This document shows, piece by piece, positions 37,068 through 46,888 of a stretch of 49,065 bases of DNA; the first letter of the stretch is position 1; each line of letters opens with the position of its first letter. A program made the translations under genes and the position numbers. This DNA is from Bacteroidales bacterium (GTDB lineage Bacteria > Bacteroidota > Bacteroidia > Bacteroidales > Muribaculaceae), in NCBI GenBank assembly GCA_014800605.1, contig JAAVFS010000072.1, positions 1 to 49,065 on the forward strand. Direction: 5' to 3'. Below the pieces are notes generated by a model. That model had not been told where the DNA came from. It made no database searches and worked only from the letters and a program-made list of their open reading frames with translations.

Positions 37068-37592
37068 CTACCAGTTGCCGAGTGTAGCGTTGAATATCAG
37101 GTCTACGAGTTCTTCGGAGATCTGCTGACACAGTTCGTCCTGGACGTCGGTCAGCATCTGCGATGCGTCGAAATCGCGATAGGCCGTGAAAGTCTGGTCG
37201 ACGTTGTTTTTCTCGTTCTTGGTGTCGGTATATTTTACTCTGACGCCGATGGTCAGTCGGGTCTGTGATGCGTATGCGTCCTCGGTGACGGCCTGAGGCG
37301 AGAGCGAGTAGGTGGTGATTTCGCCTTCGAGCATGAGGTCTGACTGACCGTCGGTCGTCTGCAGGCGGGTGTTGCGGTTGATGTAGTCGAGCAGCTCATT
37401 CTCAAATGTCTGCTGGAGCGGGGGGTAGACGAGCGCCGCGCGGATCGGGAACTGACTGACATGGATCGTGTGATAGACATTGTAGTCGATCGGCGCGCCG
37501 TTGAGAGTGAAGTTGATGCGGCATGATATGGCTGCTACCGCAAGGATTGTGGCAGTCAGTGACAGTAGGAGCAATCGGGCGTGGCGTTTCAT
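37068..37592 (-). CDS. lptE: LptE-family LPS-assembly lipoprotein
   Basis: A 174-residue lipoprotein with signal peptide and lipobox AISC (Cys24). The mature part begins INFTLNGAPIDYNVYHTIHVSQFP, characteristic of Bacteroidetes LptE, and continues with QQTFENELLDYINRNTRLQ and the beta segment LMLEGEITTYSLSPQAV. LptE plugs the LptD barrel in the outer membrane and helps insert LPS. It overlaps the sigma-54 activator stop by four bases. Confidence 0.87.
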   Translation of the reverse strand: MKRHARLLLLSLTATILAVAAISCRINFTLNGAPIDYNVYHTIHVSQFPIRAALVYPPLQQTFENELLDYINRNTRLQTTDGQSDLMLEGEITTYSLSPQAVTEDAYASQTRLTIGVRVKYTDTKNEKNNVDQTFTAYRDFDASQMLTDVQDELCQQISEELVDLIFNATLGNW

Positions 37593-38827
37593 TCGAGATT
37601 GTATTCTTTGATTTTGCGGTAGAGGGTGCGCTCCGAGAAGCCGAGCTCGGCTGCGGCGTTGCGTCGGCGCCCCATGTTGCGCTCCAGGGCGAGGCGGATG
37701 AGTTCACGCTCATTCTCTTCGAGTGTGGGGAGGGGTTCGTCAGCTTCCGCGCGTCGGGCGTTTCGGGGTGGCAGATCCGATGCTGTCGGAGCATACTTGA
37801 CGAGCGATGTGGGCTGCGGAGTGACGGACGTAGCCACCTCGACGTGGGGTGTGATCGGAGCCTCCTCGGAGGGTACGGAGCTCCCGCGGCCGGTGACTAT
37901 CGCACGCAGGTCGTCGATCTCGCTCTGCAGCCGCCATATCAGGTTGAAGAGGGCTTCGCGTTCACGCTCGTAGGCTCCGGTGGAGGGGGTGCCGGCGAGG
38001 GTGGGCGATAGCGTTGCCGGTACGTCGGGCAGATATTTGCGCAGTATCGCGTCGTCGATCTCCTGGCCCGCCTCAAAGAGAGCCATCTGCTCGACTACAT
38101 TCTTGAGCTGGCGGACATTGCCGGGCCATGCATAGTGGAGCATCGTGCGGGTAGCCTCCTCGGTTAGAGTGATCTGGGGAGTGCGGTAGCGCTCTGAGAA
38201 GTCGGCGGCGAAGCGGCGCGCCAGGGTGGTGATGTCGTTGCCGCGCTCGCGAAGCGGCGGGACGTTGATCTGCACGGTCGAAAGGCGGTAGAACAGGTCC
38301 TGACGGAATCGTCCTTCGCGCACGAGGCGCTCCAGATCTACATTCGTGGCGGCGACGATGCGCACGCTCGTCTTCTGCACGGTCGACGATCCGACCTTGA
38401 TAAATTCGCCTGACTCGAGCACGCGGAGCAGGCGGGCCTGAGTGGTGAGCGGCAGCTCGGCCACTTCGTCCAGGAAGATCGTACCCCCGTCAGCCTCCTC
38501 AAAGTAGCCTTTGCGGGTGGCTATAGCGCCCGTGAAAGCCCCCTTTTCGTGGCCGAACAGCTCGGAGTCGATGGTGCCCTCGGGGATGGCGCCGCAGTTG
38601 ACGGCTATATATCGCGAGTGCTTGCGCGGACTGAATTGATGTATTATCTTGGGGAAGAACTCTTTGCCGGTGCCGCTTTCGCCGGTGACCAGCACGGAGA
38701 GGTCGATGGGCGCGACGCGGACGGCACGTGTCAGCGCTTCCGTCAGTGCCGGCGCATTGCCTATGATGCCCAGTCGAGCCTTGGCTGCGGCTACTTCCTG
38801 CGGTATTTCTACAAGGTTGAGTTCCAT
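37589..38827 (-). CDS. Sigma-54-dependent activator lacking a receiver domain
   Basis: A 412-residue enhancer-binding protein when started at MELNLVEIP (38827). The track's ~98 extra N-terminal residues are low-complexity readthrough inside the acyltransferase gene. The AAA+ domain begins almost at once: Walker A GESGTGKE at 49-56, the sigma-54 contact ELFGHEKGAFTGA, Walker B GGTIFLDEV, and the arginine-finger region FRQDLFYRLSTVQI. A linker of ~100 residues leads to a Fis-type helix-turn-helix (RRRNAAAELGFSERTLYRKIKEYNLE). With no receiver, GAF or PAS domain, the input signal is not evident. It overlaps the acyltransferase stop by one base (TAATG) and the lptE start by four. Confidence 0.93.
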   Translation of the reverse strand: MELNLVEIPQEVAAAKARLGIIGNAPALTEALTRAVRVAPIDLSVLVTGESGTGKEFFPKIIHQFSPRKHSRYIAVNCGAIPEGTIDSELFGHEKGAFTGAIATRKGYFEEADGGTIFLDEVAELPLTTQARLLRVLESGEFIKVGSSTVQKTSVRIVAATNVDLERLVREGRFRQDLFYRLSTVQINVPPLRERGNDITTLARRFAADFSERYRTPQITLTEEATRTMLHYAWPGNVRQLKNVVEQMALFEAGQEIDDAILRKYLPDVPATLSPTLAGTPSTGAYEREREALFNLIWRLQSEIDDLRAIVTGRGSSVPSEEAPITPHVEVATSVTPQPTSLVKYAPTASDLPPRNARRAEADEPLPTLEENERELIRLALERNMGRRRNAAAELGFSERTLYRKIKEYNLE

Positions 38828-39711
38828 TAGGATTGCTTGGACTTTATGTCGCGGAGCGAGTAGGTGCGCTCGCGCAGAAATGTGCCGAACTCCTCGAGCG
38901 AGCCCTTGTGTCGTGCCTGCTCCTCGACCGATATCGGGTCGCCGATGGTGACGCGGAAGGTTTTGCCTTTCTTTTTGAAGACCTCGTGGGGGTGCATGAT
39001 CGAGCGCACCTGCCAGCAGACTACTCCCATGAAGTTGAAAAACCAGCTGTTGGAGCCGTGGAAGAATATCGGGATGACCGGGACGTCGAGCTGGTCGATC
39101 AGTCGGATGATGTTGGGCTGCCACTGGCGGTCCTTGAGGCGGAGCCGCCAGTTGACCTTGGCCACTGCGCCGGCCGGGAAGAAGCCCACGGGGTCGCCTT
39201 TGCGCACATTGAGGATCACCTCCTTGATGCCGCGCATCGAGACAGCCTTTTTCTTCGGGTCGTCGCTCGCCATGGCGTCGACGGCTATGAAGTTGGGCCG
39301 CATGCCGCGTATGTGGTTGAGTATCATGTTGACCATCACCTTGTATCGGGGGCGACGGCTGGCTATGAGGTCGATGAGTATGATGCCGTCGAGCGCGCCG
39401 AAGTGGTGATTGCTGACGGTGATAAACGCCCCCTCGGGCAGGTGGTTGAGCACATCCTCATTGTCGACCTTCAGCTTGATGTCGAGGTCGGTCAGCAGTC
39501 CGCGCACAAATTCCGGACCGGGATGATCCACATGGCGTGCATGCAGATCGTTGACCTTGTTGAGCCATAGGAAGTTGACGAGCCGATTGACGAGCTTCGG
39601 GTGCTTGCGTAGCTTCGGCGCCATCTGCATGATGTCGTCGGCATTCAGCACATCGCGTTTCTTGTCGTCATCGAGCGCTGCGGCGGGTTGTTCGTTAGAA
39701 ATTGTATTCAT
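38827..39711 (-). CDS. PlsC-like lysophospholipid acyltransferase
   Basis: A 294-residue acyltransferase. The catalytic H-x4-D motif is in SNHHFGALDGIIL. The phosphate-binding block appears as KGDPVGFFPAGAV, and PVIPIFFHGSNSW is the third family motif. A hydrophobic stretch around FMGVVCWQV may contact the membrane. It resembles the hemolysin-type PlsC group that acylates lysophospholipids or, in Bacteroidetes, makes ornithine- or glycine-type lipids; the exact acceptor is unknown. It is the first gene of the acyltransferase-sigma54-lptE-TPR-secG operon. Confidence 0.85.
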   Translation of the reverse strand: MNTISNEQPAAALDDDKKRDVLNADDIMQMAPKLRKHPKLVNRLVNFLWLNKVNDLHARHVDHPGPEFVRGLLTDLDIKLKVDNEDVLNHLPEGAFITVSNHHFGALDGIILIDLIASRRPRYKVMVNMILNHIRGMRPNFIAVDAMASDDPKKKAVSMRGIKEVILNVRKGDPVGFFPAGAVAKVNWRLRLKDRQWQPNIIRLIDQLDVPVIPIFFHGSNSWFFNFMGVVCWQVRSIMHPHEVFKKKGKTFRVTIGDPISVEEQARHKGSLEEFGTFLRERTYSLRDIKSKQS

Positions 39712-40024: not shown

Positions 40025-41206
40025 ATGAAAAAGCAACTCAGACACGGCTCTATCTCGATGATGGGCCTCGCAGCAGCGGTTTCACTGGCGTCTTGCGGCG
40101 GAAAATCAGAGCAGCAGATGCAGATGCAGCAGGGTGCTCCTGCTATCGCAGTAGAAACTGTAGGATTCGGTTCTACTGATTTCACTTCCGACTATCCCGC
40201 TACAATCAAGGGTAAGACTGACATTCAGATTCGTCCCCAGGTTTCAGGCTTTATTACAAAAGTCCATGTCGACGAAGGCGATCACGTCAGAAAGGGTCAG
40301 TTGCTTTTCACTATCGACCAGGTGCAGTTTCAGGCAGCTGTAGATCAGGCCAAAGCAGCCGTCGAGTCAGCCCGCACAGCCGTCAATACTGCAAAAATGA
40401 CCGCCGATCAGAAACAGAACCTCTTCAATCAGAACATCATCAGCGAATATGAGAATCAGCTCGCCAAGAACTCACTGACCCAGGCTCAGGCTCAGCTCGC
40501 CACAGCTGAGGCAGCCCTCGTGACAGCGCGTAAGAATCTCGCCTACACCGAGGTGACCTCTCCCAGCGACGGCGTGATCGGCTCGATCCCCAGCCGTGAG
40601 GGCTCGCTCGCATCTCCCTCGATGGCCCAGCCCCTGACAACAGTCAGCGACAACAACGAAGTCTACGCCTACTTCTCACTCAATGAGAAAGATCTCCTCC
40701 GCCTGACCGACAACGGCGCCAACACCCTCTCGCAGAGCATCGCCGAGATGCCCGAAGTCGAGCTCCAGCTCGCCGATGGCACCATCTATCCCTACAAGGG
40801 CAAGATCGCTACCGTCTCGGGCGTGATCGACAATTCGACCGGTGCAGCTACCGTTCGCGCGCTCTTCCCCAACAAGAACGGCATGCTCCGCAGCGGCTCT
40901 ACCGGCAAGATACTCATCCCCGGCATTCAGGATAGCGTCATCGTGATCCCACAGAAGGCTACTTTCGAGCTTCAGGACAAGAAATTCGTCTTCGTGCTCA
41001 ACGACTCTAACCGCCTCGAGTCTACCCCCATCCAGGTGTCACCCGTCAGCGACGGTAAGGTCTACGTAGTGACCGGCGGCCTCAAGGGCGGCGAGGTGAT
41101 CCCCGTCGAAGGCATCGGCACCAAGCTGCGCAACGGCATGGAGATTCAGCCCATGGACGCAACTGCACGTGCAGCCGCCGCTCAGGGTGCTCCCGCCGCT
41201 ATGTAA
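40025..41206 (+). CDS. RND efflux periplasmic adaptor lipoprotein (AcrA/MexA family)
   Basis: A 393-residue membrane-fusion protein. Lipobox SLASC (Cys24) anchors it in the inner membrane. The barrel-sandwich/lipoyl halves are IQIRPQVSGFITKVHVDEGDHVRKGQLLFTI and LAYTEVTSPSDGVIGSI, flanking a coiled-coil hairpin (~95-155, Gln/Ala-rich). The beta-barrel and membrane-proximal domains follow (ALFPNKNGMLRSGSTGKILIPG). It bridges the RND pump to the outer-membrane factor. The coding strand here prefers C-ending codons and is richly expressed in style compared with the opening genes. It lies 48 bases before the pump. Confidence 0.95.
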   Translation: MKKQLRHGSISMMGLAAAVSLASCGGKSEQQMQMQQGAPAIAVETVGFGSTDFTSDYPATIKGKTDIQIRPQVSGFITKVHVDEGDHVRKGQLLFTIDQVQFQAAVDQAKAAVESARTAVNTAKMTADQKQNLFNQNIISEYENQLAKNSLTQAQAQLATAEAALVTARKNLAYTEVTSPSDGVIGSIPSREGSLASPSMAQPLTTVSDNNEVYAYFSLNEKDLLRLTDNGANTLSQSIAEMPEVELQLADGTIYPYKGKIATVSGVIDNSTGAATVRALFPNKNGMLRSGSTGKILIPGIQDSVIVIPQKATFELQDKKFVFVLNDSNRLESTPIQVSPVSDGKVYVVTGGLKGGEVIPVEGIGTKLRNGMEIQPMDATARAAAAQGAPAAM

Positions 41207-41254: not shown

Positions 41255-44200
41255 ATGAAATTAGATACATTTATTAACCGCCCGGTGCTCTCGACGGTAA
41301 TCTCCATCTTTATCGTCCTGTTGGGTCTGATCGGACTGACTTCGCTCCCTATCACTCAGTTCCCCGACATCGCGCCTCCTACCATCCAGGTGTCGACCAC
41401 TTATACCGGTGCTAATGCCCAGGCTGTGCTCAACTCCGTGATCGCGCCCCTTGAGGAAGCCATCAACGGTGCCGAAGGCATGGTCTACATGGAGTCAACA
41501 GCCACCAACACCGGCTCCGCCAACATCACCATCACATTCCGTCAGGGCTTCAACCCCGACATGGCTGCCGTCGACGTGCAGAACCGTGTGGCCAAGGCTA
41601 CCAACCTCCTTCCCGCCGAAGTAACCCAGGTCGGCGTGCTCACCCAGAAGCGCCAGACCTCAATGCTCGTAGGTATCGCCCTCTATAGCCCCAACGACTC
41701 TTACGACGGCCTCTTCATCGACAACTATATGAAGATCAACGTCATCCCGATGCTTCAGCGTGTGTCCGGTGTGGGCGACGTCATGTCGTTCGGCGCTGAC
41801 TACTCGATGCGTATATGGCTCAAGCCCGACGTGATGGCCCAGTATCACCTGATGCCGACCGATGTAGCCGCTGCCCTCTCGGAGCAGAATATCGAGGCTG
41901 CGCCCGGTGCATTCGGCGAGCAGGGCGACCAGACATTCCAGTACACCCTCAAATATCGCGGCCGTCTCGCCACTCCCGAGGAGTTTGATAATATCGTCGT
42001 GCGTGCCAACTCCGACGGCTCTGTCCTATACCTCAAGGATGTAGCCGACGTAGAGCTCGGTAAGGTGACCTACGGATTTGCCAACTCACTCAATGGCCAC
42101 CCGTCATCCACCTGTATGGTGTTCCAGACAGCAGGCTCCAACGCTACCGAGATTATCAACAACTGTCTTGCTCTTGTTGATGAAATCTCGACCGACCTTC
42201 CCGAAGGTCTTGAGTTTGCTACAATCCTCAACAACAACGACTTCCTCTATGCGTCAATCCATCACGTGATCCAGACCCTCATCGAGGCCTTCATCCTGGT
42301 GTTCTTCGTGACCTACGTCTTCCTGCAGGACTTCCGCTCCACACTTATCCCCGCTATCGCCATCCCCGTGGCCCTTATCGGTACATTCTTCGGTATGAGC
42401 GCCATCGGATTCTCGATCAACCTTATCACCCTCTCGGCACTCGTGCTTGCCATCGCGATCGTGGTCGACGATGCCATTGTGGTCGTCGAGGCTGTCCATG
42501 CCAAGCTTGACGCCGGCTACAAGAGCGCGCGCAAAGCATCTATCGACGCCATGAGCGAGATCGGCTCAGCCATCATATCGATCACGCTTGTCATGATGCT
42601 CGTGTTCATCCCCGTGTCATTCATGCCAGGCACTTCCGGTATCTTCTATCAGCAGTTCGGTCTGACCATGGCCATCGCGATCGGTATCTCCGCTCTGAAC
42701 GCGCTTACCCTTTCGCCCGCGCTATGCGCCGTCTTCCTGAAGCCTCACAATGACGACCGCTCCCTGAAGGAACGCATGGGCGTCGCCTACTCCGAGGCAG
42801 CCCGTACCATGAAAGGCCGCTTCCAGCTCCCCGCTTTCGTGACATTCATCTTCCTTGTTGCGACAATCGTATTCATGATCCTTGGATGGTACAACCTGCA
42901 TAACACCCTCCACTTCGTAATCGCAGTCATTTCAGCCATCATCGCCGTTATCGGCATCTTCGGAAAACGCTTCCAGCGGGCATTCGAGAAATCTTACGAA
43001 AAACTTCTCGGCGGATACCGCAAGGGAGTCAAATTCTTCGGCAACCATAAGATCGTATCCTTCCTGCTCGTGATTGTCAGCGGATTCGTGCTCGTCTTCC
43101 TGATGCAGCGTACACCCTCGACCATGGTGCCCGACGAAGACACCGGCGTGCTGTTCGCCATGATCGACATGCCTCCCGGTACATCACAGGAGCGCACCGA
43201 CGAGGAGCTGACCAAGCTCGGAGCTGCTATTCAGCAGATCCCCGGCGTCAAGTACACCCAGAAGATTCTCGGCTATAGCTTCATTGCCGGCCAGGGTGCT
43301 ACCTACGGTACATTCATCATCAAGCTCGATCCCTGGGAAGACCGTACAGCCGAGGACGAATCCTCAAAGGCTATCGTGCGCAAGATCTTCGGCATCGGCG
43401 CGCAGGTAGTCAAGGACGGTCGCGTGGTGGCATTCGCTCCTCCGATGATCTCCGGCTACTCCGTGACCAACGGTTTCGAGCTCAAGATGCAGGATAAGAC
43501 CGGCGGCGACATCAATACCTTCTTCGGCGTCGTCCAGGGATTCCTCGCCAAGCTCAATGAGCAGCCCGAAATCATGTCGGCATATTCGACCTTCAACCCC
43601 ACCTTCCCTCAGTATATGATCGACATCGACGCCGCCAAGTGTATGCAGGCCGGCATCAGCCCCAAGACAATCCTCACCACACTCCAGGGCTACTACGGCG
43701 GTATGTATGTCTCCAACTTCAACCGCTTCGGTAAGATCTACCGCGTCATGATGCAGGCTACCCCCGAGTCACGCGTCTCTCCCGAGACTCTCGCATCGAT
43801 CAAGGTGCGCAATGGCTCCGAGATGGCTTCGCTCGAGAACTTTGTCACCATGACCCGCGTCTACGGTCCTGACCTTCTCAACCGCTTCAACATGTTCCAG
43901 TCGATCTCCGTGACCGGTCAGCCCAACCCCGGCTTCACCTCGGGCGACGCTCTCGCCGCCGTGAAACGCGTGGCAGCCGAGACCCTCCCTCAGGGATATG
44001 GCTACGACTATGCAGGTATGACCCGTGAGGAAGCCAACAGCTCCGGTGGTTCCACAGGCATCATCTTCGGCCTCTGCCTCCTCTTCGTCTACCTCCTCCT
44101 CTCAGCTCAGTATGAGAGCTATGTGCTCCCCTGGGCTGTTATCCTCTCGATCCCCTTCGGTCTGATGGGTACATTCATCTTCGCCAACATCTTCGATATC

Positions 44201-44614
44201 GCCAACAGTATCTACCTGCAGATCGCGCTCATCATGCTTATCGGTCTTCTCGCTAAGAATGCCATCCTTATCGTAGAGTTCGCGCTCGAACGCCGCCATA
44301 CAGGCATGTCCATCTTCAATGCCGCCGTAGCCGGTGCAACCGACCGTCTCCGCCCGATTTTGATGACATCGCTTGCGCTGATCATCGGTCTGCTCCCCAT
44401 GATGTTCTCCACAGGTGTAGGAGCCAATGGTAACCGTGCACTCGGTGCCGGCTCGATCGGCGGTATGCTTATCGGTATGATCTGCCAGATCTTCATCGTG
44501 CCCGCCCTCTTCATCGTCTTCGAGATCATTCAGGAGAAATTCTCTCCCATCAAGTTCAGCGATACCGACAATTCAGGCATCGAAAGCGAGATCGAACAGT
44601 ATTCGGCCAACTAA
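41255..44614 (+). CDS. RND efflux pump, inner-membrane permease (AcrB/HAE1) with an inserted helix pair
   Basis: A 1119-residue pump, ~70 longer than AcrB. Proton-relay residues are present: the Asp pair in AIVVDDAIVVVEAVHAK (TM4) and the Lys in GLLAKNAILIVEFAL (TM10). The N-terminus MKLDTFINRPVLSTVISIFIVLLGLIGL is typical. Between TM6 (TLSPALCAVFLKP) and TM7 (VSFLLVIVSGFVLVFLM), an extra ~75 residues carry two strongly hydrophobic segments, FVTFIFLVATIVFMILGWY (~526-545) and LHFVIAVISAIIAVIGIF (~550-568). The usual amphipathic FQRAFEKSYEKLLGGY follows. Such pumps form trimers and expel drugs, bile salts and lipids. The substrate here is unknown. Confidence 0.95.
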   Translation: MKLDTFINRPVLSTVISIFIVLLGLIGLTSLPITQFPDIAPPTIQVSTTYTGANAQAVLNSVIAPLEEAINGAEGMVYMESTATNTGSANITITFRQGFNPDMAAVDVQNRVAKATNLLPAEVTQVGVLTQKRQTSMLVGIALYSPNDSYDGLFIDNYMKINVIPMLQRVSGVGDVMSFGADYSMRIWLKPDVMAQYHLMPTDVAAALSEQNIEAAPGAFGEQGDQTFQYTLKYRGRLATPEEFDNIVVRANSDGSVLYLKDVADVELGKVTYGFANSLNGHPSSTCMVFQTAGSNATEIINNCLALVDEISTDLPEGLEFATILNNNDFLYASIHHVIQTLIEAFILVFFVTYVFLQDFRSTLIPAIAIPVALIGTFFGMSAIGFSINLITLSALVLAIAIVVDDAIVVVEAVHAKLDAGYKSARKASIDAMSEIGSAIISITLVMMLVFIPVSFMPGTSGIFYQQFGLTMAIAIGISALNALTLSPALCAVFLKPHNDDRSLKERMGVAYSEAARTMKGRFQLPAFVTFIFLVATIVFMILGWYNLHNTLHFVIAVISAIIAVIGIFGKRFQRAFEKSYEKLLGGYRKGVKFFGNHKIVSFLLVIVSGFVLVFLMQRTPSTMVPDEDTGVLFAMIDMPPGTSQERTDEELTKLGAAIQQIPGVKYTQKILGYSFIAGQGATYGTFIIKLDPWEDRTAEDESSKAIVRKIFGIGAQVVKDGRVVAFAPPMISGYSVTNGFELKMQDKTGGDINTFFGVVQGFLAKLNEQPEIMSAYSTFNPTFPQYMIDIDAAKCMQAGISPKTILTTLQGYYGGMYVSNFNRFGKIYRVMMQATPESRVSPETLASIKVRNGSEMASLENFVTMTRVYGPDLLNRFNMFQSISVTGQPNPGFTSGDALAAVKRVAAETLPQGYGYDYAGMTREEANSSGGSTGIIFGLCLLFVYLLLSAQYESYVLPWAVILSIPFGLMGTFIFANIFDIANSIYLQIALIMLIGLLAKNAILIVEFALERRHTGMSIFNAAVAGATDRLRPILMTSLALIIGLLPMMFSTGVGANGNRALGAGSIGGMLIGMICQIFIVPALFIVFEIIQEKFSPIKFSDTDNSGIESEIEQYSAN

Positions 44615-44642: not shown

Positions 44643-46022
44643 ATGAAACAAGCAAAACTACAGCTCCTCGTGGTGTCGGCACTCATGGTGTCGACACTCA
44701 CCGGATGCAATATCTATAAGAAATTTCAGATGCCTGCCGACACGGCCCTCCGCCAGGAGTATGTCGACGCACGTGCAGCTCAGCTTGATCCCACCGAGCT
44801 CGGCAATCTCCCCTGGGAGCAAGTCTTCACCGATCCGATGCTTGCTGACCTCATCAATCAGGCACTCGAGGCCAACACCAACCTCGAGAATGCCCGCATC
44901 AACGTTGAGATAGCCCACGCCGGCCTCCGCGGTGCCCGCCTGTCTTATCTCCCCTCATTCGCTATCGCCGCCCAGGGGGGTGCCTCATCCTATGCCAACG
45001 GCTCGCTCGGCAACTGGAACTACACCATCCCCTTGACAGCCTCTTGGGAGATCGACGCCTTCGGCAAGCTCCTCAATGCCAAGCGTAATGCCGAGGCCAC
45101 TCAGGCTCAGGCCGAAGCCTATGCGCAGGCTGTCCGCTCTCAGATTATCGGCGGCGTGGCCAATTGCTACTACTCTATCTCAGCCCTCTCACGCCAGCTC
45201 GAGCTCAACCGCTCCACTGCCGAGATCTGGCGCGATAATGTCGAGACAATGCGCCGCTACAAGGAGGCCGGCCGCACCAATGAGGCTGCCGTCATGCAGG
45301 CCGATGCCAACTATCGCTCGATACTCGCATCTATCACCGACCTCGAAAGCGCCCTCCACGAGGCTAATCTCTCGATGTCGCTCCTGCTCAACGTCAAGCC
45401 TCAGTCATGGGCCGTCAATGCCTCAGCACTGACCATCCCCGCCGAGCTCAGCAATGGTGTCCCCATGGCCCAGCTCGCGGCCCGTCCCGATGTCCGCGCC
45501 GCCGAGGCTGCCGTGGCCGTAGCCTACTATGCTACAAATCAGGCTCGTGCTGCCTTCTATCCCGGCCTGACCATTACCGCCAACTATGGCTTCACCAACC
45601 TTGCCGGATCTATCGTCCGTAATCCAGGTGAGTGGTTTGCCAACCTTGCCGGCTCGCTCGTAGCGCCCCTCTTCTCGCGTGGCCAGAACATCGCCCGCCT
45701 CGAAGCCGCCAAGCTCCAGCAGCAGCAGGCCATGAACAACTTCGAGTATTCTCTCCTGTCGGCTTCAGCTGAAGTCTCAGGCGCGCTGACCACCTATGAC
45801 CGCGCCAACGCCAAGGCAGAGCATCTCGCCGTTCAGGTCGACGACCTCGTCAAAGCATCCAAATACACAGCCGAGCTCTTTAAGACAGCCGATGCCACAT
45901 ATCTCGAGGTGCTGACCGCACAGTCGAGTCTCCTCGGCGCCCAGATGTCGCAGATCTCTTGCGAGCTCGCACGCTCCCAGGCCATCATCAACCTCTACCA
46001 GTCACTCGGCGGAGGCCGCTGA
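44643..46022 (+). CDS. RND efflux outer-membrane factor (OprM/NodT family)
   Basis: A 459-residue TolC-type lipoprotein with lipobox TLTGC (Cys22). It has the two-repeat OMF layout. The first repeat begins DPMLADLINQALEANTNLENARINVEIA and the second AQLAARPDVRAAEAAVAVAYYATNQARAAFYPGLTI. GSWEIDAFGKL-type ASWEIDAFGKLLNAKRNAEA is a NodT hallmark. It forms the outer-membrane channel of this tripartite pump. The gap to the pump gene is 28 bases. Confidence 0.95.
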   Translation: MKQAKLQLLVVSALMVSTLTGCNIYKKFQMPADTALRQEYVDARAAQLDPTELGNLPWEQVFTDPMLADLINQALEANTNLENARINVEIAHAGLRGARLSYLPSFAIAAQGGASSYANGSLGNWNYTIPLTASWEIDAFGKLLNAKRNAEATQAQAEAYAQAVRSQIIGGVANCYYSISALSRQLELNRSTAEIWRDNVETMRRYKEAGRTNEAAVMQADANYRSILASITDLESALHEANLSMSLLLNVKPQSWAVNASALTIPAELSNGVPMAQLAARPDVRAAEAAVAVAYYATNQARAAFYPGLTITANYGFTNLAGSIVRNPGEWFANLAGSLVAPLFSRGQNIARLEAAKLQQQQAMNNFEYSLLSASAEVSGALTTYDRANAKAEHLAVQVDDLVKASKYTAELFKTADATYLEVLTAQSSLLGAQMSQISCELARSQAIINLYQSLGGGR

Positions 46023-46099: not shown

Positions 46100-46888
46100 A
46101 TGATTTCTCCACTTGCACATATCGCGCCCGGAGCCAGGATCGGCAGCGGCGTGACCATCCATCCCTTCGCATTCATCGACGACAACACCGTCATCGGCGA
46201 CAACTGCGTCATCATGCCCTACGCAAGCGTAATGGCCGGAACGACAGTCGGCGAGGGCTCTACCATCTATAATGGCGCCATCGTCGGAGCCGCCCCCCAG
46301 GATTTCCGCTGGAAGCCCGGTCAGCCCAGCCACTGCACCATCGGCGCCCGCTGCGTTATCCGCGAGAATGTCATCATCAACCGCGGATTTGCTACCCCCG
46401 AGGGCACATCTATCGGCGACGAGACCTTCATCATGGCCACAGCCCATATCGGCCACGACTGCCACCTGCAGGGGCGCACAGTCGTGGGCAATGGCGTCAC
46501 CATGGCCGGCAATATCGAGATCGGTGCCTGCACGATCCTTTCAAGCAACTCTGTAGTCCACGAAGGGTCTCGCATCGGAGAGTGGGTACTCATCAAGGGA
46601 GGCTGCCGCATCTCAGGCAATGTCCCTCCCTATGTCATCATCGCCCACAACCCCGCCTCCTACTATGGCATCAACGCCAGCATAATGCGCAAATCCGACT
46701 TCACCGACGAGCGCATCGACGACATCGCCAAAGCATACCGCCACATCTACCAGTCGGGCACATCGGTATTCAACGCCCTCCAGCGTATCGAGGCTGATAT
46801 CGACCCCTCCGACGAGCGCGACAAGATCCTCAGCTTCATCCGCGATAATAAGCTCCGCATCGTAGCCGTTCCAATCGACCTCGAATAA
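46100..46888 (+). CDS. LpxA-like acyl-ACP:UDP-sugar O-acyltransferase, probable paralogue
   Basis: A 262-residue left-handed beta-helix protein, the same length as E. coli LpxA. Hexapeptide repeats fill ~1-190 and a helical tail ends the chain. The catalytic region ATAHIGHDC keeps the two His equivalent to H122 and H125, and GAAPQDFRWKPGQPS matches GAQPQDLKYKGEPS. But the His equivalent to H144 (AGH) is Asn here (MAGNIEIGA), and the HRGT segment is NRGF. LpxA catalyses the first lipid A step and normally sits with lpxD/lpxC-fabZ. This copy follows the efflux operon by 77 bases, so I read it as a paralogue with a changed substrate or acyl length. The start is ATG 46100. Confidence 0.85.
   Translation: MISPLAHIAPGARIGSGVTIHPFAFIDDNTVIGDNCVIMPYASVMAGTTVGEGSTIYNGAIVGAAPQDFRWKPGQPSHCTIGARCVIRENVIINRGFATPEGTSIGDETFIMATAHIGHDCHLQGRTVVGNGVTMAGNIEIGACTILSSNSVVHEGSRIGEWVLIKGGCRISGNVPPYVIIAHNPASYYGINASIMRKSDFTDERIDDIAKAYRHIYQSGTSVFNALQRIEADIDPSDERDKILSFIRDNKLRIVAVPIDLE

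Follow-up and report, generated by a model that had tools for sequence, protein, structure and literature searches.

A pump gene in a 49,065-nucleotide stretch of Muribaculaceae DNA (contig JAAVFS010000072.1 of assembly GCA_014800605.1; hereafter the window) encodes an HAE1-type RND permease with an insert between TM6 and the amphipathic helix Ialpha. The insert is well supported by prediction as a membrane hairpin, which brings the pump to 14 predicted helices. The explanation that we consider rather probable as a whole is an HAE1 pump fitted with an exchangeable, selected, cytoplasm-in hairpin cassette whose role, by analogy with AcrZ, would be one of tuning.

The gene (41255–44614, + strand) encodes 1119 aa. 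In profile searches the protein scores 943 bits against PF00873 (cut-off 28) and 997 bits against TIGR00915, above the cut-off of 940; its 1115 bits against NF000282 fall below the cut-off of 1250. Foldseek comparison of its AlphaFold2 model with the PDB returned AcrB, CmeB and AdeJ at target-normalised TM-scores of 0.95–0.96 and rmsd values from 2.0. The proton-relay residues Asp405-Asp406 (42467–42472; D407/D408 in AcrB), Lys1001 (44255–44257; K940) and Arg1033 (44351–44353; R971), all encoded on the + strand, are invariant in alignment A2. Profile, AcrB-like fold, proton-relay residues and a tripartite operon thus all place the pump in HAE1, and it departs only from the usual, though not strictly defining, count of 12 transmembrane helices. 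With its hairpin, the pump is a variation on a known type.

The boundaries of the insert come from alignment and from ortholog spacing. A phmmer search of PDB chains aligns query residues 5–498 and 575–1094 to CmeB and leaves the 76 residues between them unmatched; CmeB fills this gap (498–575) with about 8 residues (503 to 512), making the insert about 68 residues longer than the corresponding CmeB segment. The spacing from the SPALC to the VPxED motif is 132 residues in the window pump versus 71–73 in most insert-free orthologs, a net gain of about 61. The preliminary description, which had reported about 75 extra residues between TM6 and the amphipathic helix, was therefore right that added sequence is present. 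The range that it gave, 42750–43110, starts correctly and contains the insert, but its second half is normal Ialpha and TM7. The insert proper covers residues 499 to ~574 (42749–42976). It begins with a basic cytoplasmic segment bearing an LKERMGxAY motif (residues 499–524, 42749–42826), followed by helix TMa (residues 527–545, 42833–42889; model helix 527–542), a short uncharged turn predicted to be periplasmic (residues 546–550, 42890–42904) and helix TMb (residues 551–570, 42905–42964; model helix 551–568). Ialpha, a helix in the model, comprises residues 571–597 (42965–43045), and TM7 in the AlphaFold2 model residues 599–619 (43049–43111); all of these features lie on the + strand. Known domains were rejected as homologs of the insert, the PDB profile matches to kinases and SERCA being at chance level. 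The single Pfam match of the insert, to DUF4191, was below cut-off and is taken as chance.

Three lines of prediction agree on the hairpin and hence on 14 helices: hydrophobicity, the positive-inside pattern over 96 insert-bearing homologs, and the AlphaFold2 model. The two long hydrophobic segments of the preliminary description have Kyte–Doolittle (KD) peaks of 2.69 (residues 525–543) and 2.61 (552–570), equal to or above those of most of the 12 genuine transmembrane helices of the pump. Across the 96 homologs TMa and TMb have mean KD values of 2.38 and 2.53 and mean approximate dG values of −1.65 and −1.30, within the range of TM1–TM12, compared with +10.9 for Ialpha. The homologs average 6.7 K+R before TMa, 0.05 in the turn (residues 544–551) and 6.0 after TMb, a high/low/high pattern that fits a cytoplasm-in hairpin with TM7 in its usual orientation. 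The turn averages 1.0 D+E in the homologs and reads GWYNLHNTLHF in the window. It is uncharged, and the charge that had been assigned to it lies instead before the first helix and after the second. Both insert helices are present in AlphaFold2 model 1 (89 close sequences, mean pLDDT 72) and in model 2 (108 more diverse sequences, mean pLDDT 81), where helices 527–542 and 551–568 reach about 70–85 and a helix at 505–520 before TMa is of low confidence (pLDDT ~42–47). The 14 helices initially proposed in place of 12 are thus borne out by prediction.

The insert is absent from all four other RND pumps of the same genome. Counted from the matches listed, 94 of 149 Muribaculaceae genomes contain a match that runs over its full length; the insert-bearing reading frames measure 1119–1158 aa where contig ends do not interrupt them, and named loci include Heminiphilus, Paramuribaculum, Duncaniella and Muribaculum. 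A second family carries it in 21 of 201 genomes (23 matches, two with stops). This family is probably Bacteroidaceae, since the insert-bearing pump of a Bacteroides finegoldii record is 80% identical to that of one of its members. Among 396 phylum-wide and 393 order-wide genomes, real insert matches occurred in Muribaculaceae and the second family only; the remaining matches, near E=0.001, were short, in small frames or interrupted by stops. Orthologs in other Bacteroidales families, 71–75% identical over the N-terminal half, have frames of ~1060–1085 aa and lack the insert, so the added length is not the norm for Bacteroidales HAE1 pumps. A phage or plasmid origin was rejected, as no relative was found in viral contigs and the plasmid-labelled records resemble chromosomal pieces. 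Three such records, from Bacteroides finegoldii, Parabacteroides distasonis and Phocaeicola massiliensis TSDC17.2-1.1 (L301, L302, L303), contain either this operon or a related RND pump; they look chromosomal because one contains mdh and uxuA and one is numbered plasmid 82.

The insert is under purifying selection. Over ten close pairs its dN/dS is 0.067, compared with 0.035 and 0.043 for the long flanks and 0.10 for Ialpha plus TM7; a value near 0.07 indicates constraint. L504, R507, A511 and G567 are invariant within the insert in both families, as are F573 and F577 directly after it. Conservation along TMa outlines a helical face only weakly (p=0.07 and 0.22 in the two families). Residue shifts that parallel insert presence in the two families are concentrated in Ialpha residues 574–582 (42974–43000) and not in TM6; H574, A579 and D582 are the residues frequent in insert-free pumps. 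This clustering points to joint transfer, or co-adaptation, of the insert and the first half of Ialpha.

The distribution of the insert does not follow the phylogeny of the pump. A core tree of 118 pumps, from which the insert region was removed, splits the two families with full support. On this tree the insert is patchy in each family and requires at least nine state changes, and supported sister pairs (L107/L152, L112/L150 and L117/L151) differ in insert state. The linker of L151, an insert-free Muribaculaceae pump, spans 94 residues from SPALC to VPxED (usually 71–73) and has no hydrophobic hairpin. The earlier suggestion that the insert might mark a Bacteroidales subfamily fails, since insert-bearing and insert-free orthologs are interleaved in two families; the nine or more changes rule it out as a clade marker. 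The insert tree also conflicts with the core tree. Within one genus of the second family (g410), the cores of L175/L176 group with those of L171/L173/L177 and the alternative is rejected (p=0.0006); in the insert tree the L175/L176 inserts group with other genera, and the genus as one clade is rejected (AU p=0.0002). The insert tree rests on 86 usable columns, and the conflicting rows and groups were partly picked after the trees had been seen. The number of changes on the core tree and the conflict between trees point to a probable exchange of the insert between orthologous pump genes, in which recombination within the gene moved it as a cassette. The remainder of the pump behaves as vertically inherited, with the hairpin gained and lost between close relatives as if swapped. 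Dips in flank identity were rejected as recombination breakpoints because TM6 and TM7 values are equal in same-state controls; the one small drop below the controls, in pairs that differ in state, is at the start of Ialpha.

Other explanations of the insert and its history are less probable. That it is an artefact of assembly or annotation would accord with the fragmentation of the window genome into 135 contigs, but homologous inserts at the same site, with the frame intact, in more than 100 independent assemblies including isolates refute this. It is quite unlikely that the hydrophobic segments are re-entrant or interfacial and that the pump keeps 12 spanning helices. At 16 and 18 residues the modelled helices are on the short side for a full membrane span and leave some room for a re-entrant form, and their pLDDT is moderate; against this, both segments match real transmembrane helices in hydrophobicity, each has 19–21 nearly charge-free residues and the positive-inside flanks are clear, so that a spanning hairpin is favoured. 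An insert already present in the common ancestor of both families, followed by many losses and zero lateral exchange, is a somewhat stronger alternative but still improbable. In its favour, both families have homologous inserts, and polyphyly of the second-family inserts is unsupported, a single clade being compatible with the data (AU p=0.76). Losses, however, would have had to recreate the outgroup-like linker: an RFH motif shortly after TM6 is found in 16/18 and 15/19 insert-free pumps of the two families and in 10/16 pumps of outgroup families, but at that place in 0/95 insert-bearing pumps. Because insert-free pumps of both families share this linker, absence of the insert looks like the ancestral state and not like the product of deletion. 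The disagreement of insert and core trees within one genus likewise speaks against a history without exchange.

The genomic setting of the pump is conserved. The periplasmic adaptor (RND_mfp; 40025–41206, + strand; TIGR01730 264 bits, above cut-off) is its upstream neighbour and a TolC-like outer-membrane factor (44643–46022, + strand; PF02321 142 bits) its downstream neighbour in nearly all orthologs. The fourth and last gene of the operon, conserved 3' of the pump, is a second LpxA (LpxA2; 46100–46888, + strand), which exceeds the equivalog cut-offs of TIGR01852 (237.5 against 231.05) and NF003657 (244.9 against 226). It is separate from the housekeeping copy: another LpxA in the window genome lies next to an LpxD-like gene, at 36% identity. 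The order adaptor–RND–TolC-like–LpxA occurs at 68/68 insert-bearing and 17/17 insert-free Muribaculaceae loci with more than 3 kb of downstream sequence, and at 20/20 insert-bearing loci of the second family. Pump orthologs in other Bacteroidales families also have the operon with LpxA2, paralogous pumps are without it, and genomes G001, G017 and G018, which have no close match to the pump, likewise have no close LpxA2. Conservation of LpxA2 in the operon suggests that the pump as a whole is tied to envelope lipids. Divergent from the operon, an acyltransferase gene (38827–39711, − strand) resembles GlsA/OlsF lipid synthases below their cut-offs; among the loci compared, the window and its closest relative are the only two with it upstream of the operon. 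The reading frame of a sigma-54 activator (37589–39124, − strand) has a GTG start that overlaps this acyltransferase by ~300 bases, and its true start is probably further downstream.

In the mechanism that we propose, the RND permease of this tripartite pump is a proton-driven HAE1 protein, ordinary except for a cassette of ~61–72 extra residues between TM6 and Ialpha. The cassette would form a basic cytoplasmic segment and a cytoplasm-in hairpin (TM6a/TM6b) whose turn is short and periplasmic; the helix count would rise to 14 without inverting TM7–TM12. As an optional structural module, it would have spread, mainly through recombination, in Muribaculaceae and a second Bacteroidales family. 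The hairpin may pack beside TM6 and Ialpha, on the rim of the transmembrane domain, whose stability or conformational cycle it may tune as a built-in counterpart of the small AcrZ helix. In AcrB, Ialpha links the two repeats on the cytoplasmic side, and protomers contact each other through their membrane domains only at a small TM1/TM8 interface (PMC8277102); given both features, an added peripheral hairpin could be accommodated. The AcrZ helix is described as occupying a groove of AcrB, where it may adjust the conformational dynamics for particular substrates (PMC13095208).

Such AcrZ-like tuning of the transmembrane domain is a tentative assignment of function, possible by analogy. Less likely still, the hairpin may be a dock for a separate accessory protein or a gate for a lipid-like substrate related to the operon's LpxA2. 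LpxA2 does close the pump operon in orthologs with enough downstream sequence, and purifying selection on the insert would fit a dock or gate. LpxA2 is linked equally to insert-free orthologs, however, so the insert is not required for that association, and none of the operon-linked genes tested separates insert-bearing from insert-free loci. A specific tie of the insert to LpxA2 or to neighbouring genes was rejected, because insert-free pumps share the same operon, and LpxA2 therefore does not explain the insert. A more speculative combination, which we regard as doubtful, is that gut Bacteroidales retune the pump with a hairpin that intragenic recombination passes from species to species, the natural cargo of the pump being an acylated envelope lipid made by the operon's own LpxA2. 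Apart from the insert, the linked LpxA2 is a testable clue to the natural substrate of a pump that is otherwise anonymous.

To our knowledge and in the literature searched, descriptions of AcrB-type RND pumps give 12 membrane helices. The searches, which covered open-licence full texts, found no report of additional helices between TM6 and TM7 of an RND pump. AcrB, CmeB, MexB and AdeJ share with the window pump the fold, the proton-relay residues, the two repeats, Ialpha and a tripartite operon with adaptor and TolC-like factor. They differ from it in the hairpin between TM6 and Ialpha (about 68 residues over CmeB) and in having 12 helices against its predicted 14. AcrZ resembles the hairpin as an extra membrane helix element at an RND transmembrane domain, a proposed analogue with no claim of homology. 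AcrZ is, however, a separate 49-aa protein with one helix that binds in a groove, whereas the hairpin is a covalent two-helix insert and part of the permease chain itself, which places it outside the AcrZ type. A further comparison is with insert-free Bacteroidales orthologs such as that of Parabacteroides distasonis (WP_094582382.1), which have the same adaptor, TolC-like factor and second LpxA and are ~61–78% identical to the window pump overall, but have a SPALC–VPxED linker of ~71–73 residues and no hairpin. Pairs with and without the insert at ~80–85% identity offer natural material for asking how two additional helices affect an RND pump.
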